From NCBI GenBank assembly GCA_023078555.1, contig CM041202.1, positions 5,752,522 to 5,816,521 of the forward strand: 64,000 nucleotides of DNA, read 5' to 3'. The DNA comes from Ulva prolifera. Lineage: Eukaryota; Chlorophyta; Ulvophyceae; Ulvales; Ulvaceae. Each line of letters starts with the position of its first letter. Positions within the stretch are counted from its first letter, which is position 1. Under the pieces are notes generated by a model that was not told where the DNA came from, did no database searches, and worked only from the letters and a program-made list of their open reading frames with translations. Below are positions 25,172 to 62,402 of this stretch, piece by piece. A program made the position numbers and the translations under genes.

Positions 25172-25201
25172 TGTCGGTTTCTCCCGTTCACTCTTTTGTA
25201 A
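25172..25201 (+). mobile_element. retroposon 2, 30-bp 3' remnant with TSD
   Basis: Only the last 30 bases of the LINE 3' end remain (ending CACTCTTTTGTAA). Direct repeats ACTTCACAGGTCC (25159-25171) and ACTTCACAGATCC (25202-25214), one mismatch, flank it. It lies 36 bp before the giant TG tract. Confidence 0.75.
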
Positions 25202-25236
25202 ACTTCACAGATCCACCACATGTGAAGAAGACTGAG

Positions 25237-28414
<3,178 letters not shown>

Positions 28415-28693
28415 TACAAGGACAAAGCAAGCGAGGCAGGTAGCACCGCAAGCAAGAAGCAGGGGAAACGCACACCACGCAGCAAGCCACACGAAGCGCA
28501 CACCAAAACACCCTCGCAACGGCAGCACCCGCGCCGGACACAGCGACACGGCAACACAACCACACACACGCCCATGCCCACACGCCCATCCCCACCCGAA
28601 CCCCGCCTAACAGCAAGTCGCTATGTTGATGTTGCTTCAGATGGGATTCGGTTTCAGTGTTTGTTTTCTCCCGTCCACTCTTTTGTAAGCCCA
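28415..28693. mobile_element. retroposon 1 and 2 truncated copies, head to head
   Basis: 28415-28610 is the 3' part of retroposon 1 on the minus strand, closely matching 62403-62620. From about 28620 to 28693 the 3' end of retroposon 2 follows on the plus strand (GGGATTCGGTTTCAGTG to CACTCTTTTGTAA). Their truncated 5' ends meet near 28610-28620 and the 3' ends point outward. Confidence 0.8.
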
Positions 28694-39406: not shown

Positions 39407-42400
39407 GACCACCCACCCCTCGCTGTCAGAACAGTGCTGCTCCTCAGCAATTGCACTGAGTGCTTGCTGGTGTGCCTTCACAGAATTCTGCATCACCGCA
39501 CCACCCACCCCTCGCTGTCAGAACAGTGCTGCTCCACAGCAATTGCACTGAGTGCTTGCTGGTGTGCCTTCACAGAATTCTGCATCACCGCACCACCCAC
39601 CCCTCGCTGTCAGAACAGTGCTACTCCACAGCAATTGCACTGAGTGCTTGCTGGTGTGCCTTCACAGAATTCTGCATCACCGCACCACCCACCCCTCGCT
39701 GTCAGAACAGTGCTGCTCCTCAGCAATTGCACTGAGTGCTTGCTGGTGTGCCTTCACAGAATTCTGCATCACCGCACCACCCACCCCTCGCTGTCAGAAC
39801 AGTGCTACTCCACAGCAATTGCACTGAGTGCTTGCTGGTGTGCCTTCACAGAATTCTGCATCACCGCACCACCCACCCCTCGCTGTCAGAACAGTGCTGC
39901 TCCTCAGCAATTGCACTGAGTGCTTGCTGGTGTGCCTTCACAGAATGCTGCATCACCGCACCACCCACCCCTCGCTGTCAGAACAGTGCTGCTCCACAGC
40001 AATTGCACTGCGTGCTTGCTGGTGTGCCTTCACAGAATGCTGCATCGCCGCACCACCCACCCCTCGATGGCAGAACAGTGCTGCTCCACAGCAATTGCAC
40101 TGCGTGCTTGCTGGCGTGCCTTCACAGAATTCTGCATCCCCGCACCACCCACCCCCCGCTGTCAGAACAGTGCTGCTCCTCAGCAATTGCACTGAGTGCT
40201 TGCTGGTGTGCCTTCACAGAATGCTGCATCGCCGCACCACCCACCCCTCGCTTTCAGAACAGTGCTGCTCCACAGCAATTGCACTGCGTGCTTGCTGGTG
40301 TGCCTTCACAGAATGCTGCATCGCCGCACCACCCACCCCTCGCTGTCAGAACAGTGCTGCTCCTCAGCAATTGCACTGAGTGCTTGCTGGTGTGCCTTCA
40401 CAGAATGCTGCATCGCCGCACCACCCACCCCTCGCTTTCAGAACAGTGCTGCTCCACAGCAATTGCACTGCGTGCTTGCTGGTGTGCCTTCACAGAATGC
40501 TGCATCGCCGCACCACCCACCCCTCGCTGTCAGAACAGTGCTGCTCCACAGCAATTGCACTGCGTGCTTGCTGGTGTGCCTTCACAGAATGCTGCATCGC
40601 CGCACCACCCACCCCTCGATGGCAGAACAGTGCTGCTCCACAGCAATTGCACTGCGTGCTTGCTGGTGTGCCTTCACAGAATGCTGCATCGCCGCACCAC
40701 CCACCCCTCGATGGCAGAACAGTGCTGCTCCACAGCAATTGCACTGCGTGCTTGCTGGCGTGCCTTCACAGAATGCTGCATCGCCGCACCACCCACCCCT
40801 CGCTGTCAGAACAGTGCTGCTCCACAGAAATTGCACTGAGTGCTTGCTGGCGTGCCTTCACAGAATGCTGCATCACCGCACCACCCACCCCTCGCTGTCA
40901 GAACAGTGCTGCTCCTCAGCAATTGCACTGAGTGCTTGCTGGTGTGCCTTCACAGAATGCTGCATCGCCGCACCACCCACCCCTCGATGGCAGAACAGTG
41001 CTGCTCCACAGCAATTGCACTGCGTGCTTGCTGGTGTGCCTTCACAGAATGCTGCATCGCCGCACCACCCACCCCTCGATGGCAGAACAGTGCTGCTCCA
41101 CAGCAATTGCACTGCGTGCTTGCTGGCGTGCCTTCACAGAATGCTGCATCGCCGCACCACCCACCCCTCGCTGTCAGAACAGTGCTGCTCCACAGAAATT
41201 GCACTGAGTGCTTGCTGGCGTGCCTTCACAGAATGCTGCATCACCGCACCACCCACCCCTCGCTGTCAGAACAGTGCTGCTCCTCAGCAATTGCACTGAG
41301 TGCTTGCTGGTGTGCCTTCACAGAATGCTGCATCGCCGCACCACCCACCCCTCGCTTTCAGAACAGTGCTGCTCCACAGCAATTGCACTGCGTGCTTGCT
41401 GGTGTGCCTTCACAGAATGCTGCATCGCCGCACCACCCACCCCTCGCTGTCAGAACAGTGCTGCTCCACAGCAATTGCACTGCGTGCTTGCTGGTGTGCC
41501 TTCACAGAATGCTGCATCGCCGCACCACCCACCCCTCGCTTTCAGAACAGTGCTGCTCCACAGCAATTGCACTGCGTGCTTGCTGGTGTGCCTTCACAGA
41601 ATGCTGCATCGCCGCACCACCCACCCCTCGCTGTCAGAACAGTGCTGCTCCACAGCAATTGCACTGCGTGCTTGCTGGTGTGCCTTCACAGAATGCTGCA
41701 TCGCCGCACCACCCACCCCTCGATGGCAGAACAGTGCTGCTCCACAGCAATTGCACTGCGTGCTTGCTGGCGTGCCTTCACAGAATGCTGCATCGCCGCA
41801 CCACCCACCCCTCGCTGTCAGAACAGTGCTGCTCCACAGAAATTGCACTGAGTGCTTGCTGGCGTGCCTTCACAGAATTCTGCATCACCGCACCACCCAC
41901 CCCTCGCTGTCAGAACAGTGCTGCTCCTCAGCAATTGCACTGAGTGCTTGCTGGTGTGCCTTCACAGAATTCTGCATCACCGCACCACCCACCCCTCGCT
42001 GTCAGAACAGTGCTGCTCCTCAGCAATTGCACTGAGTGCTTGCTGGTGTGCCTTCACAGAATTCTGCATCACCGCACCACCCACCCCTCGCTGTCAGAAC
42101 AGTGCTGCTCCACAGCAATTGCACTGCGTGCTTGCTGGTGTGCCTTCACAGAATGCTGCATCGCCGCACCACCCACCCCTCGATGGCAGAACAGTGCTGC
42201 TCCACAGCAATTGCACTGCGTGCTTGCTGGCGTGCCTTCACAGAATTCTGCATCCCCGCACCACCCACCCCCCGCTGTCAGAACAGTGCTGCTCCTCAGC
42301 AATTGCACTGAGTGCTTGCTGGTGTGCCTTCACAGAATGCTGCATCGCCGCACCACCCACCCCTCGCTTTCAGAACAGTGCTGCTCCACAGCAATTGCAC

Positions 42401-42823
42401 TGCGTGCTTGCTGGTGTGCCTTCACAGAATGCTGCATCGCCGCACCACCCACCCCCCGCTGTCAGAACAGTGCTGCTCCACAGCAATTGCACTGCGTGCT
42501 TGCTGGTGTGCCTTCACAGAATGCTGCATCGCCGCACCACCCACCCCTCGATGGCAGAACAGTGCTGCTCCACAGCAATTGCACTGCGTGCTTGCTGGCG
42601 TGCCTTCACAGAATTCTGCATCCCCGCACCACCCACCCCCCGCTGTCAGAACAGTGCTGCTCCTCAGCAATTGCACTGAGTGCTTGCTGGTGTGCCTTCA
42701 CAGAATTCTGCATCACCGCACCACCCACCCCTCGCTGTCAGAACAGTGCTGCTCCACAGCAATTGCACTGAGTGCTTGCTGGTGTGCCTTCACAGAATTA
42801 TGCATCACCGCACCACCCACCCC
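39407..42823 (+). repeat. 92-bp satellite array, about 37 copies
   Basis: Head-to-tail 92-bp units, typically containing CTTCACAGAATTCTGCATCA or CTTCACAGAATGCTGCATCG and CAGAACAGTGCTGCTCC. Variable positions (A/C in CACTGAGTG, T/G in GAATTCTG, CTGT/CTTT/ATGG before CAGAAC, T/A in CTCCTCAG) define unit types. A four-unit block (368 bp) is duplicated in tandem at 40564-40931 and 40932-41299. A longer run from 39828 recurs 23 units (2116 bp) later at 41944. Because 92 is not a multiple of three, each frame meets the CACTGA stop only every third A-type unit, which produces 91-, 183-, 275- and 367-codon open frames without being coding. Confidence 0.97.
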
Positions 42824-43965
42824 CCTCCCCCTCTGCATGCAGTGCTGCTCTACAGCATTACACTCTGCCTTGCATTTGCAGCCTGGAATGGTGAGCACTG
42901 TTCGGATTTACATCGATTGTGAGATACATGGCCCTGCTGGTGTATATCAGCCTCACCTCGAGGTGATCTTTGTCTTGTCAGCGGCGTCTTGTGCAGTGGT
43001 AGTCCAGCTGCGCACGTGCGGGTTTGTTCAGGATATCACGCCGTAGGTACTGGTAGGTGGGAGCACCCACCCACAGCATGTGCGGCGTTGCGCCGGCTCG
43101 GCCATGCCTTGAAATTTGTTGTTGTGACGCAGTGCAGCTTGCCAAGCGTTTGCATGGTGTACAACCCTCACTTGCACAACACATGCTCATTAGCACTGGC
43201 CGCAGTCCAGTGAATCAATCTTCGAGGTGATCACACCATGGCGTGCACGGTCGAGCCTGAGCATAGCTGCTGTTGGCCATGCATGTTTTTATTAGCTGAC
43301 GTCAGGGTACCCTTTCCAGTCAACATATGTGGCGTTGCCCACGTCAACAGGTATCCCTGATTCCTTTTCAGCTGAGACGTGCTCAGCCGGAGAATGTGGA
43401 GGTGTTCGTACAAGGGACGCTGCAGAGCTCTGCATGCCACACGTCGTCGGTGGCTACAGGGGCTTTGCCACCGGCGCGAGATCACTGCTTCTGCAGCTTG
43501 CACAATCAACATGCGCGCATTCTTAGCCGGGATTCCATTTGGCATGTATCATTTAATAACGTTAGTCCATGTATTGGCTCGTAACACCTGAGCCGGAGCC
43601 ATACTTGGCGGCTGCTGGTCCCATGCCCATTACAGGCGCACCTGGATTGCAGCGCCATTAGTTATGACTTGATAGATGCAATTGTAGTTATTAATTTGAT
43701 CTGTATCCAACATGGGGCTTGCCGTTGTCTGTCGCTTTGTTTCAAGCGTTGTTGACCATCGCGACCTGCACAGCTCGATCAGCTCTGCGCAAGGATGCCT
43801 AAGAAGGCCAGCATCACATGTATACACGGTGCGTCTTTATCTTGTTTTGCGTTTTAACTTAATTCACAATGGTGCTTTGCTTGCCTTCTGAGAGGCCTGC
43901 GATCGTGCGGCGCTGCCTTGCCGTGCACGGGAGAGTCTGTTTGTTTTTTTTCCTGATGGTACTAC
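42824..43965. other. interval without an assignable gene
   Basis: A good acceptor-like TTCCTTTTCAG at about 43371 is followed by an open frame to 43584, but no partner was found. Otherwise nothing recognisable. Confidence 0.35.
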
Positions 43966-53888: not shown

Positions 53889-53948
53889 GAGTCCTGTGAC
53901 ACGTGAACAGGCATAGGCGCCTATGCCCGTTCACGTGTCACAGGACTC
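53889..53948. repeat. 60-bp palindrome with one mismatch
   Basis: Arms 53889-53918 and 53919-53948, no loop, 29 of 30 paired (centre AGGC|GCCT). It lies about 200 bp past the stop of the leucine-rich gene. Confidence 0.95.
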
Positions 53949-53954
53949 GCTTTT

Positions 53955-54018
53955 GATACGGAAGAGACGCTTTTGCTGTGTGCGCCGGCGCACACAGCAA
54001 AAGCGTCTCTTCCGTATC
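53955..54018. repeat. 64-bp perfect palindrome
   Basis: Arms 53955-53986 and 53987-54018, perfectly complementary with no loop (centre GCGCC|GGCGC). It is only 6 bp after the previous palindrome and unrelated to it in sequence. Confidence 0.97.
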
Positions 54019-57958: not shown

Positions 57959-59223
57959 TTGCAACCGTGCATGGTGGCGACGAGTGTAGCACAGCACCGC
58001 CATCGCCCCATGCTGCCTATGCTAGGGATTCAAGCAGCATGTTCCAGTCACAGCCTCAGGGGCATGTAGCTGCGGCGCCGATGACTTCCATGTGGAGTCC
58101 GCCGCTGACGCTTGAAGGTAACAGATGTCTCGATGTAGCTGGATCAGCTCGACCTACGCAGGCTCAAACAGGCTCCGGGGCATCGGGGTGGGTTCCACCC
58201 ACGCGCCACATGGTCATCTGTCACCGGTGCAAGATGTGCTGTGCATGTTGTGAGCCTGCGAGACACAGAGCAAGACGGTCGCTGCATGGTTGCAAGGAGT
58301 GGCCACCGTTCATGCGCGGCTCCCGGGCCGGATGCTCTGGCACATGGACACATGCTTACGCCGCTCCCTGCGGCAACAGGGTCTGGGATGTATGTGTGGA
58401 CTGCACAGGCCAAGCCGGGCCCGCTCGCGCTCCGCCCGCGGCCCGTCGAGTGCTATGTCAAGCCTGTCAAGTGGTGCCGCTGCTCGTGTCACCACTGCAT
58501 GAGCCGGAGCTGCGGAGTGAAGGCACGGCGCGCCACGCATGCACTCGAGGGGCATGGCTGCAGAGTTCATACATATTGGTGTCGTGGATGATGTAGTGCA
58601 TAGCTTATGCAGTTAAGGGACGGTCTGACCTACTGGTAGATCTCTAGCCAGGCATTCAAGTGGCCAATTTGCATCATGACCACTAGCACCGTGATCACAG
58701 TTGATTGATTGCATGCACGGGGCCGATGTGCATGAAATTATGGGCTCCGCCTTCTTGTCTGATATCAGGGAGTCCCCGCCAGCTGCAGTCTGCTGCGATC
58801 AGCTGAAGGCTGTGCCTGGGTGCCACATCTCGGCAGGCAGGACAGAACGGTGTGAGTTGGCATCTCAGCAATGGTTGCGCCGGGTGCTGTAGCGCTACAG
58901 CGCGCGCACCGTTATATATATTGATGCAGAGGGCCTGAAGTTTTGATTGGGCTTGGCATGGTCGGAGCTGCCTCCACCGGACCTCGAAACCGAAGTGACG
59001 GTCCAGCAACTTGAATCCAGAACTTACAAAGTACTGCGCATTGGTGGCCTGGAAAATATCAGCGTGCCCGGCCCAGCCTGCCTGGCGCCAACTCACAGAA
59101 GATTTGATTTGTAATCGCTCCTGAGCAACTGACACTTCGTGGATTCACCTATCGTGGGGTCTGCGCAGACCCATGCATGCATGGGCCGAGGGGCAATGTT
59201 CTACCAGAGCATATGCATATGTA
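57959..59223. other. interval without an assignable gene
   Basis: Open frames of 209 codons (57967-58596 plus, GTG start) and 146 codons (59135-58695 minus) occur, the former Cys-rich, but neither has a recognised domain. Confidence 0.35.
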
Positions 59224-59343
59224 TGGAAGTCCAGTGATAAGACCGCTTTGCCACTGGACACTTACCCGTCGCGGCGTGTAAGTACTTACACGCCGCGACG
59301 GGTAAGTGTCCAGTGGCAAAGCGGTCTTATCACTGGACTTCCA
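59224..59343. repeat. palindrome family P, copy 1 (120 bp, perfect)
   Basis: Arms 59224-59283 and 59284-59343 pair at all 60 positions with no loop (centre AAGT|ACTT). Each arm also has CCAGTG and CACTGG, 15 bases apart, which can form a side stem. The arm is homologous to copies 2 and 3 (GTCCAGTGATAAGACCGCTT versus ATCCAGTGATATGGCCGCTA). Confidence 0.98.
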
Positions 59344-59540
59344 CAATATGTGGCGCCGTCAGCCTCCTCTACCGACAGTAGATGCGGATCTGAGTGGCAT
59401 CACAAGCCTGTACACGTGCCATGCGCTTGCCCAGGTCTCCAGCAAGAAGCAGTCCGCGACAGCCCTAGGCCTGAAACAATTTTGTGGAAGCCCTGCCCTG
59501 CTGTAGCCAGGCACTCCCCCTCAGGCGGCCCCAGCCCAAG
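59344..59540. other. spacer between palindrome and MITE
   Basis: Nothing recognised. Confidence 0.4.
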
Positions 59541-59548
59541 CTCAAGGC

Positions 59549-59996
59549 CAGAGTTGCATTAATACGCGTATCTTTCGATTCCGGTACGTTTAATACGCGT
59601 ATTTTTTCCAAACGTACTTTACCAGCGTATAGTACGCGCGTACGTTTCGGACTTGCGCGTTTTGAGAGCCTACAGCTCTGCACTGTGGTGCACCTCTAGC
59701 CACAAGGCCAAAGGAGGTTTTTAACATCCCTTGCATTGCATGATGAACCTGAGTAGCCTGATAATCTAATTGACTGTTAATACATTGTACTGTTATCTGC
59801 AATTGTGTGCCTGAGCACAGATAACAGGGACCGTGGCACTACCAAGTCTGCCCTTCACCGGCTTGGCGCCTTAGGCGCCAAGCCAGTGATGTAGCCTATA
59901 CAGCGTACTTTTCAATCCCCCAAGATCGAAGCCAACGTACCATACGCGTGTTTTTGCTCAACGTATTTTATCACGAAACGTACTAATGCAACTCTG
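59549..59996. mobile_element. hAT-like MITE, 448 bp, 8-bp TSD
   Basis: Terminal inverted repeats CAGAGTTGCATTAATACG (left) and CAGAGTTGCATTAGTACG (right, inverted) differ at one base. Perfect 8-bp target duplications CTCAAGGC lie at 59541-59548 and 59997-60004. An 8-bp duplication and a CAGAG-type terminus fit the hAT superfamily. The interior has TACGCG/ACGTAC-rich ends and a GGCTTGGCGCCT hairpin at about 59860, and no transposase, so it is non-autonomous. Confidence 0.88.
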
Positions 59997-60004
59997 CTCA
60001 AGGC

Positions 60005-60147
60005 AGTGCCAGTGTTGGCCGGTAGCACCAATAGCAAAAGGTGCCAATCCCGCGGAAATTGGGAATGTCGGTGCCTCTCATCTCCAGAGTGTTGCCTAGG
60101 AGGGGTGAAGCTTCATCGCTCGCAGTGGCCCCAGACTATCTTGTATC
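60005..60147. other. spacer
   Basis: Nothing recognised. Confidence 0.4.
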
Positions 60148-60546
60148 ATGGCCATGCGTTCACGTGCTGCTGATGTCTTCACATCCTACATCGCACGTGC
60201 ACCCATCGGGGCAGTTCTGCCACCTGTCCCAGTGGCACATCGTGATCGGCGTGTCTCCGCCGTTGCGGTTTTGGTGCGGCAGTTGCTCGCACGGCCAGGT
60301 CCTTATGACAGTGCCTCTGGTGTTTCGTGGTCTGATGTAGCGGTTGTGCTTATTGTCGGTGTTGATGGTGTTGGTGGTGATGCTGGGGTGTCGGGTGTTG
60401 CAAATCGCCCGTCCCCTCTCGGTGAATTGGCTCGTGTTGTTGCATTCTGTGGCGCAAGTCAGAGTTTGCGGCAGCATGTTGCTTGGATGCCTCTTTCGGT
60501 CCCGGATTTCGGAGTTGTCAATGTCCAAATGGATACGGCTATGTAA
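60148..60546 (+). CDS. hypothetical protein, 132 residues
   Basis: A single open frame from the ATG at 60148 (MAMRSRAADVFTSYIARAPI and onward) to a TAA. It has a Val/Gly-rich hydrophobic centre (VAVVLIVGVDGVGGDAGVSG) and a hydrophilic C-terminus. No domain, paralogue or splice partner is visible. Its position between a MITE and palindromes makes an old mobile-element fragment possible. It may also be chance. Confidence 0.28.
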   Translation: MAMRSRAADVFTSYIARAPIGAVLPPVPVAHRDRRVSAVAVLVRQLLARPGPYDSASGVSWSDVAVVLIVGVDGVGGDAGVSGVANRPSPLGELARVVAFCGASQSLRQHVAWMPLSVPDFGVVNVQMDTAM

Positions 60547-60715
60547 TCGTGCATACATACATACATACATGCGTGGGGGTGTGCCGTATGGATGTTACGG
60601 CTACAAAGCTGGGTAGGCAGGTAGCATTGCAGAAACATGTGCCAGGAACACAGGAACACCTGTGCCACCGCCGGCAGATTTAGCACCCTGACACAGCAAA
60701 AAGCCATGTTGACAG

Positions 60716-60819
60716 TTTGTGGCAATCCAGTGATATGGCCGCTATACCACTGGATCCTTGCACGTCGCGACGTGCAAGGATCCAGTGGTATAGCGGCCAT
60801 ATCACTGGATTGCCACAAA
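60716..60819. repeat. palindrome family P, copy 2 (104 bp, perfect)
   Basis: Arms 60716-60767 and 60768-60819, all 52 positions paired, no loop (centre GTCG|CGAC). The arm begins TTTGTGGCAATCCAGTGATA. Confidence 0.98.
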
Positions 60820-61011
60820 AGTTGGGTTCGTGAGGTCGGTAGTTCGACACCCGCCTTGCACAGTCAGGTCGCGGCCACTCGTGTCGCGTTAAGTGGGGCA
60901 TAGGATCACGGGACCAGCGTAAGTCCAGAGAGGCAGTGGTCGGATCGATGCTGATACGGACCGGGGGAGCTGGAGGACTGGCCAGCCTCAGATCTCAGAG
61001 GACCCAGCTTT

Positions 61012-61111
61012 TGTGGCAATCCAGTGATATGGCCGCTATACCACTGGACCCTTGCACGTCGCGACGTGCAAGGGTCCAGTGGTATAGCGGCCATATCACT
61101 GGATTGCCACA
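61012..61111. repeat. palindrome family P, copy 3 (100 bp, perfect)
   Basis: Arms 61012-61061 and 61062-61111, all 50 positions paired. It differs from copy 2 by GGACCC instead of GGATCC in the arm, and both arms carry the change. Confidence 0.98.
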
Positions 61112-62402
61112 CAGTTTCAGCTCATGTACACCTGCACACGGCCACTCCCGCACACATGCACGCAGCAATGTGGTACCACATGCATGCTGCACCCGCCCAG
61201 AATCTGCCACCGCAGGTGCGGCCGAGGCGGCTCACGAGACTAGTCACTAGGCAGTACTGCCCGGCTACTGCCGGGCGAAAAAGCTGCAGCTGGCCATGCA
61301 GCCCTAGGGGGAGCCCCGGCCCCCACACCTACCCCTGACCGGCAGCATCCGCCACCCAGCGGAGCCGCCCTGGCTCAGCACGCCGACCCGGTGGCACCGG
61401 AACACACGCCGGAACGCCGGAACACACCCACGCCACACCAAACACCATGGAATGCTATGACATTGAACGGAACAATGAACGTGTGAAGCTTCCTGAACAT
61501 CCATAACTGCGTGCTCTTCCTGGCCGCAGAAGCTCAAGGTCTGAGCCAGTATTCGTGCGAGTGCTGCTGTTACACAGCCGTTGACCCATGGCCAAAGCCT
61601 GGCGAAATGTGCGCTGCAGCGGGACGCCTGCAGGCCTGAGTATACACTTTAGGGTATGCACTACTAGCTATGTAGTAGTAGCTCTGACTTTGAGCCGGAC
61701 ATGCACCCGCGCTGCAGCCAGGGATCATGCATATGACAAAGCGGCTGGGCACCGTATGCGTTATTGCCAGCATTCAGGCTCACAATTTATGGCTAGGCTG
61801 GCTGATTGCGGTGCTGCGCTTGCTGTCCGAGTCGTTGCCGCTGGGTGACTCAGCATCGGATGCTGAGATGTACTACTATAGTATCGGGGAAGTATCTGGG
61901 GTTGTCATGTCGCGCGGACGGGCCCGGGCTGCGCAATGATGTGGTCCGGGGTAGGAGGCCTCCTAGGGCTCCATGTTGCCAGGTGGACTTCACCCGGGCC
62001 CTAGCAGTGCTACATGTGACTCACATGTCGGACATGTGTGTTACAAGGACACAGCGACCGAGGCAGGTGGCACTGCGTGCATGTTAATAATTATTGCAAT
62101 TATAACCGATATATCAATGAATATATTGGTTATAACCAGGGGAATCACCCACGCGTGGTTGCGCGCAACCAGTACCACGCAGCACATGCCAAAACTGTGC
62201 TACATTTGTATACCAGTGACATGGCACTCATTGGGCACCATCAGCAAAATGGGTCTACTGAGGCCGGACATCCCGATAGTGTACTCTTGTGTGTGAACTG
62301 GTTGTGCATACCGATTGCACAACGAATACGCCTGGGAAGTTGTAGACGTTAACGTAATTATGTACGCTGAGACGCTATTGCCTGGCAATTTTGTTTGTGT
62401 GT
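61112..62402. other. interval without an assignable gene
   Basis: Contains a roughly 38-bp retroposon 1 3' fragment at about 62041 (TACAAGGACACAGCGACCGA, minus orientation). Otherwise only short frames. Confidence 0.45.

Follow-up and report, generated by a model that had tools for sequence, protein, structure and literature searches.

Palindromic MITEs and fold-back elements (e.g., the palindromic repeats of C. elegans) are dispersed near-perfect palindromes that are flanked by target-site duplications (TSDs), are non-coding and are tied to cut-and-paste transposases. TRIMp3 (Helenus, Ajax and Cassandra) are TRIMs whose LTRs contain Pol III promoters; they have 5-bp TSDs in fungi and plants and depend on copia elements in fungi, and Helenus members keep both a PBS and a polypurine tract (PPT) and have tRNA-like LTRs (PMC10886601, as excerpted). 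The same excerpts describe SMARTs as 292-bp elements mobilised by copia (PMC10886601). Ginger2/TDD elements encode an integrase-like transposase and have TGTNR ends, the TSDs of TDD-4/5 being 5 bp long (PMC2836005, in the sections available). In quasipalindrome template switching, one arm serves as the template for the other, and the arm identity of an imperfect repeat is usually extended (PMC7202029 and PMC3820800, partial texts).

Here, we describe a family of palindromes from a window of Ulva prolifera DNA, which is the whole stretch of 64,000 nucleotides that was analysed (bases 5752522-5816521 of contig C7; assembly of 88.9 Mb, 44 contigs). These palindromes are the termini of a very small parasitic mobile element, or remnants that consist of a terminus alone, and the element apparently relies on a larger retrotransposon for insertion. 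The nearest published group to this element is TRIMp3 (Helenus; PMC10886601, judged on the excerpts). The shared features are a length of less than 1 kb, the lack of coding sequence, direct-repeat ends, solo LTRs with TSDs, and A- and B-box-like motifs. The element differs from TRIMp3 in its palindromic ends, in that no PPT was found and no PBS was settled, and in the position of the B-box-like motif, which lies in the spacer and not in the LTR. Furthermore, unlike TRIMp3/Helenus, it gave no tRNA match with Rfam or ARAGORN in the scanned loci, and its A and B boxes are recognised at the motif level.

In size, the short-ended form of the element (45 + 194 + 45 = 284 bp) is like SMARTs, whose LTR is 44 bp long, and both have a copia link, but the ends of the window family are hairpins and no PPT was found. 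Dispersed near-perfect palindromes with TSDs and without coding are also typical of palindromic MITEs, from which the family differs in that copia/palindrome hybrids share a TSD. The end sequence TGTNR and the TSD length are like those described for Ginger2/Tdd; however, no coding element with these ends was found at the 100 junctions inspected (one 16-bp pattern, one mismatch), and the RTATAY target preference is absent in 33 TSDs. Quasipalindrome template switching, as described in the texts cited above, could explain the 120-bp copy of the window, although in this copy a complete arm together with the old centre has been duplicated around a new one. IS481EU, so far as the excerpt of PMC10045372 characterises it, did not fit. 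We came across no account of comparable palindromic LTR ends in the parts of the open-licence literature consulted.

Palindromes in the Window

An exact-palindrome scan of the window (loops of 0-11) gave arm lengths of 60, 52, 50 and 32 bp, the next being 13 bp, so the three perfect loopless palindromes at 59224-59343 (120 bp), 60716-60819 (104 bp) and 61012-61111 (100 bp) are far beyond chance. A previous sequence-only reading had described them as three homologous copies of 120, 104 and 100 bp with a sub-stem in each arm. The scan confirmed the palindromes and their lengths, their homology is supported, and the sub-stem was found to comprise 31 bp with 84% self-complementarity in the A-type arm. 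However, the repeated unit is 100 bp, the 104-bp copy being this unit plus four flanking bases that pair by accident, and palindromes 2 and 3 are not separate copies but both ends of a single 394-bp insertion (60718-61111) with the TSD CAGTT. They differ from each other at one mirrored position pair only (columns 38 and 63). Palindrome 1 is an insertion of its own (59222-59345, TSD ATATG). What had been overlooked is that the palindromes form the ends of transposons and have 5-bp TSDs, that two of them belong to one insertion and that they are tied to a copia retrotransposon. The features are listed in Table 1.

Table 1. Positions of the two insertions and their parts within the window
Feature	Position	Strand	Remark
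5-bp TSD ATATG, left of insertion 1	59217..59221		Equals 59346-59350
Insertion 1, a solo element; perfect 120-bp palindromic core at 59224-59343; TA, not TG, at the left end	59222..59345		Related to subfamily B copies
Old centre of the family, two positions unpaired	59260..59283	+	Exact mirror image at 59284-59307
5-bp TSD ATATG, right of insertion 1	59346..59350		Equals left TSD
5-bp TSD CAGTT, left of insertion 2	60713..60717		Equals 61112-61116
Perfect 100-bp palindrome at the left end of insertion 2 (GGATCC type)	60718..60817		Palindrome scan, alignment of copies
Spacer of insertion 2, 194 bp, no coding capacity claimed	60818..61011	+	Sequence comparison
Perfect 100-bp palindrome at the right end of insertion 2 (GGACCC type)	61012..61111		Palindrome scan, alignment of copies
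5-bp TSD CAGTT, right of insertion 2	61112..61116		Equals left TSD

The spacer of insertion 2 starts with AAAGTTGGGTTC and finishes with GGACCCAGCTTT, and these ends pair with each other in a stem that includes two G-U pairs. Close to the spacer start lies GTTCGANNCC, which we take to be a B-box-like motif.

Copies in the Genome

The genome searches scored the best 40 candidates each, of up to 520, so the copies studied are a sample. With a filter of at least 36/50 matches in both arms, 67 gapless full-length copies were obtained, and three further places brought the set to 70. Based on a flank rule, these were split into 43 solo and 27 spacer-linked copies, the latter class being set by three or four flank bases, with at least nine spacer bases present in 23 of the 27. 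The four copies without nine spacer bases were L005, L012, L022 and L025, and L005 is in fact a solo copy with the TSD AAAGT. An exact 5-bp TSD was found in 33 of the 43 solo-classed copies, where the flank permutation mean was 0.86 and shifted registers gave 0-1; one insertion (L027 and L028, identical over 3,059 bp) is counted twice among the TSD-bearing solos. The ten copies without an exact TSD were mostly old, truncated or had one-base mismatches. Contig C19 (32 kb), which holds L027, repeats at least 3,059 bp of C4 (L028) exactly and in the opposite orientation, and is probably an uncollapsed duplicate contig.

Compound units of the type palindrome-spacer-palindrome carry their TSD outside the whole unit: CAGTT in the window, AATGC in L009, TTAAT in L013 and TGATA in L041, the spacer of which is 61 bp long. 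A triple form (palindrome-spacer-palindrome-spacer-palindrome) lies between AGCTC and AGCTC in L003. Compared with the window spacer, full-length spacers showed 97-100% identity in the best matches, 85-91% in others and about 70% in the B lineage. The palindrome/spacer junction, searched as a 16-bp pattern with one mismatch, occurred 100 times, against two occurrences for the reversed control. Among 20 junction places that were read, 13 had a short 45-bp end composed of 15-bp stems (up to 3 mismatches) and a 15-nt loop, and none had a clean 100-bp end. The 100-bp loopless palindrome is one version of the element end, and the 45-bp hairpin is common.

Shortened forms were also observed. L119 and L125 are internal-deletion derivatives that retain their TSDs, and one-arm copies stopping at the centre or a few bases off were found at L055, L058, L060, L062, L066 and L082; the latter are compatible either with breakage at the centre or with transcripts starting there. 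A long coding element between ends was considered for the opposing pair L115/L116, about 13 kb apart, and was rejected as the two ends come from different subfamilies and do not form one element. In L067 (1499-1598), the inner sub-stem of one arm is flipped while the 5-bp TSD CCTGT is intact, which is a sign of hairpin-mediated inversion. In L052 (250-299), a different 50-bp perfect loopless palindrome abuts a solo copy.

Symmetry of the Arms

Arm types were assigned in 69 copies, L118 being mis-registered and left out of the 70; L027 and L028 represent one locus in this count. There were 46 A copies, 19 B copies and four with one A-like and one B-like arm. The young A set comprised 43 copies after the exclusion of two diverged copies and one duplicate. 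All 23 private changes in this set were located in one arm only, and none was mirrored. At the GGATCC/GGACCC site, 13 of the young copies were TT, 17 were CC and 13 were mixed, the expected mixed number being 21.3 (P 0.01; this and the following P values are optimistic, as the rows are related). When only solos were counted, 10 of 25 were mixed against 12.3 expected (P 0.26), which is near random pairing of arms. Among the copies assigned as spacer-linked by the flank rule, mixed arms were rarer than under random pairing (3 of 18, expected 9.0, P 0.004). The solos look like recombinants between left and right ends, as expected of solo LTRs.

In the 19 B copies, 27 mirrored and 117 unmirrored changes were counted, and 25 of the 27 mirrored ones were at site/state combinations found in at least two copies. 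Since private changes lie in one arm and mirrored changes are common to several copies, the mirrored differences are mainly old, lineage-marking (subfamily) changes, and copies decay asymmetrically once inserted. General in-place correction was thus rejected as a rule by the private-change test. The sequence-only reading had proposed that differences are mirrored in both arms, which is right for the differences between subfamilies but fails as a rule for each copy, all the private changes being unmirrored. Its example, GGATCC versus GGACCC with the matching change in the other arm, is true of palindromes 2 and 3, but the site is mixed in 13 of the 43 copies. The idea that symmetry is preserved in each copy is contradicted by both observations, and the asymmetric mutations in other copies that were named as evidence against it are present (23 one-arm changes in 43 young copies). 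The family gives a rule for like sightings: mirrored changes that mark subfamilies need not imply the correction of each copy.

The 120-bp copy is a special case. Its family centre, between 59271 and 59272, has two unpaired positions inside a 24-bp block (59260-59283); an exact mirror image of this old-centre block occupies 59284-59307, and the present centre, between 59283 and 59284, is thereby shifted to the right by 12 bp. As an asymmetric old centre is duplicated here in a perfect mirror, independent mutation is no reasonable source. Judging from this arrangement, the 120-bp copy is a fold-back product in which one arm and the old centre were duplicated as a mirror image, and for this copy the earlier proposal that one arm is copied onto the other is borne out by the mirrored old centre. 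The fold-back took place either at the locus of the 120-bp copy or in a mobile source now unseen. Among the best 40 of 43 candidates, there was no second copy of the mirrored-double-centre form, and the 120-bp copy documents, as a single case, a fold-back duplication that took place in a natural genome.

In L131, a 45-bp end differs from the A arm by GTAATC/GATTAC, a change that both stems show in mirror form; L111 has the same change in only one of its arms. L131 is possibly a second case of symmetric renewal.

Link to a Copia Retrotransposon

One retrotransposon adjoins or is joined to the spacer at L002/L079, L004/L006, L077 and L082. An integrase-domain search (best 150 of 626 candidates) did not by itself single out the partner; it was recognised from the joined sequences, and its copia type was checked with Pfam. 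The RT part in L077 matches RVT_2 (E 2e-10), which is the model for RTs of the copia type, and no Pfam match was obtained for the RNase H part in L079. The copia LTR starts with TGTGGGAAGC and ends with ATTGCCACA, and a copy with both LTRs is located at C1:10713017-10718086 (TSD GATTG). The terminal 9 nt ATTGCCACA are common to A-type palindromes and the copia LTR end.

Two hybrids were read at both flanks. The L004/L006 hybrid, a single event within a 99.8% segmental duplication, is a 679-bp insertion running from the copia LTR end to the palindrome end with AGAAG on both sides. The L077 hybrid is a 1,655-bp insertion into an unrelated H2C2/rve integrase ORF; it consists of a 45-bp palindrome, the whole spacer, the copia RT and the 3' LTR, and GGTGC is found on both sides. 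Thus, each of the two shares one 5-bp TSD between its ends, and the probability of two chance matches is about one in a million (4^-10). On sequence evidence, this combination of a copia LTR end, a palindrome end and a shared TSD points to mobilisation by an autonomous LTR retrotransposon. A third hybrid, L134, of which the left portion was read, contains the palindrome, about 90-100 bp of the spacer and the copia 3' part. In L002/L079, the copia LTR leads into A12TA9, whose final three As are part of the spacer, and then into the spacer and palindrome; this join looks like a polyadenylated copia RNA fused to the RNA of the element.

Spacer-linked ends were also found near copia LTRs. Ten of 89 lay within 5 kb of a listed copia LTR (random mean 0.32, maximum 3 in 2000 runs), or 8 of 87 when C5:5069834, which was added for its nearness, and one segmental-duplicate pair are disregarded. 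None of 33 solo copies lay within this distance.

Features of Retroelements

Terminal direct repeats with TG...CA ends are present, as the 100-bp TGTGGC...GCCACA unit stands at both ends, and the palindrome is a direct and an inverted repeat together. TSDs of a fixed length of 5 bp, which lies within the 4-6 bp of TRIMs, occur both in solo LTR-like forms (the 33 of 43 exact 5-bp cases) and around compound units. Terminal inverted repeats combined with a fixed-length TSD are also as in TIR DNA transposons and MITEs, and the inverted-repeat relation between the two spacer ends is likewise reminiscent of a TIR DNA transposon.

No PPT was seen before the second palindrome, where all nine distinct aligned spacers (chosen partly by that motif) have ...GGACCCAGCTTT, nor at the opposite spacer end (...CCCAACTTT). 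The copia PBS region reads GGTTATGGGTCC..., which resembles half of initiator tRNA-Met, and neither spacer end matched it significantly. The best match, TGGGTCC in the same register, was equalled in 339 of 2000 shuffles, and it sits at the spacer end opposite to the one placed first in the hybrids. Moreover, reverse transcription of true LTRs would make the two ends identical, so non-identical ends count against this origin: the window copy is TT/CC, and L009 and L013 are both CC/TC despite different TSDs. The ends of L003 and those of L041 agree at this site. As we saw no PPT and no clear PBS, and as a single element may have unlike ends, membership in TRIMs is not proven, and we do not claim it.

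ARAGORN detected no tRNA in six loci, and none was detected in the window scan. Rfam gave no tRNA in four loci; its 23 matches comprised 21 miRNA-type hairpins and two sRNA families, all below gathering scores with E up to 5. Strings that we take to be Pol III signals at the motif level include an A-box-like one in the arm, the B-box-like GTTCGANNCC in the spacer and a CTTTT end. When half of the palindrome and the spacer were folded as RNA, a panhandle stem was present with a weak z of -2.1, 7 of 200 shuffles being as good.

Proposed Mechanism

Based on the above results, the family is probably (at roughly 0.7) a non-autonomous TRIM-like retroelement with palindromic LTR-like ends that is inserted by the copia integrase. 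We suggest the following pathway for its spread. The ends TGTGG...CCACA would be accepted by the integrase of the copia element of the same genome (LTR TGTGGGAAGC...ATTGCCACA), leading to insertion with 5-bp TSDs. The element itself may move by an RNA route, and the hybrids may have arisen when reverse transcriptase switched templates between co-packaged RNAs. It is possible that transcription is carried out by Pol III. Many of the solo palindromes could result from recombination between left and right ends, as in solo LTRs. An end of a source element would occasionally be rebuilt by fold-back copying of one arm and then amplified, which would produce symmetric differences between subfamilies, and copies would decay asymmetrically after amplification. 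Such fold-back copying was seen in one case, the 120-bp copy.

Long perfect palindromes tend to be unstable; in this genome, they have nevertheless been amplified in the form of transposon ends. Provided that the copia link is correct, a copia integrase accepts a palindromic LTR end with no PPT or clear PBS found, which would widen the view of what a minimal retrotransposon parasite needs.

Self-priming could be imagined as well, since the CTTTT end of the spacer can pair with AAAAG beside the other palindrome. A palindromic end would then replace the usual priming signals: an RNA panhandle (CTTTT on AAAAG) would prime its own copying across the palindrome, and the second end would be made as the reverse complement. 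A palindrome would be the only end sequence unchanged by such copying, and arm-to-arm copying would be a built-in step of replication giving rise to symmetric subfamily divergence. We regard this extension as quite doubtful; it predicts matching ends, but those of the window copy (TT/CC), L009 and L013 mismatch.

Alternative Explanations

The copia-dependent retroelement is preferred mainly because of the hybrids over a palindrome-ended MITE, i.e., a non-autonomous cut-and-paste DNA transposon mobilised by an unseen DDE transposase of its own, such as a Ginger2/Tdd-like enzyme with TGTNR ends. A MITE would agree well with the inverted repeats AAAGYTGGGTYC / GRACCCARCTTT at the spacer ends, with the independent inheritance of left and right ends (TT/CC in the window, CC/TC shared by L009 and L013) and with the TSDs retained by internal-deletion derivatives such as L119 and L125. 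The TGTNR ends and the 5-bp TSDs of TDD-4/5 also fit Ginger2 (PMC2836005, in the sections available). We nevertheless consider it unlikely, as both hybrids unite a copia LTR end and a palindrome end within a single TSD and would need one integrase for both ends. In addition, no coding interior between end pairs was recognised by eye at the 100 junctions (one 16-bp pattern, one mismatch), and the newly described Ginger2 families have 4-bp TSDs in RTATAY targets (PMC2836005, same sections), a preference that the 33 TSDs do not show.

Continual in-place correction from arm to arm, through hairpin or cruciform repair or quasipalindrome template switching, would keep every copy symmetric. Such switching is documented (PMC7202029 and PMC3820800, partial texts), the 120-bp copy with its mirrored old centre and a new centre 12 bp off is what it could leave behind, and the deficit of mixed arms in spacer-linked copies (3/18 versus 9.0, P 0.004, with related rows) points the same way. 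Against it stand the 23 private changes of the 43 young copies, none of them mirrored, and the excess of unmirrored changes in the B copies (117 versus 27, with 25 of the 27 at states of at least two copies), which make it improbable. A cellular role, by which the palindromes are kept as cruciforms, as dsRNA hairpins feeding small RNAs or as transcription signals, is highly improbable: a perfect 50-bp stem would be a strong source of dsRNA, but the matches to miRNA families in Rfam reflect the hairpin shape only and are all below gathering scores, and the copies are dispersed, TSD-flanked and decay asymmetrically after insertion. Long-read artefacts can yield loopless palindromes. An assembly or hairpin-read artefact would nevertheless have to account for tens of copies in different places and flanks, with TSDs of their own, mixed arms and truncations, and this makes it hardly credible.

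Other Features of the Window

Another perfect loopless palindrome, of 64 bp, is located at 53955-54018, and a near-perfect one of about 38 bp lies just to its left (about 53900-53938). These two have no recognisable kinship to the copia-linked palindrome family, and no TSD was seen by eye. A separate element at 59549-59996 carries terminal inverted repeats of 18 bp (CAGAGTTGCATTAATACG..., 94%) and is flanked on either side by the duplicated 8-bp sequence CTCAAGGC; we take it to be like hAT-type MITEs. At about 25190-28500, there are some 3.3 kb of almost pure TG/CA dinucleotide repeat, the frames of which read CVCV/HTHT. A long tandem array with repeated overlapping frames (MLAGVPSQNAASPHHPPL...) extends over 39736-43046.
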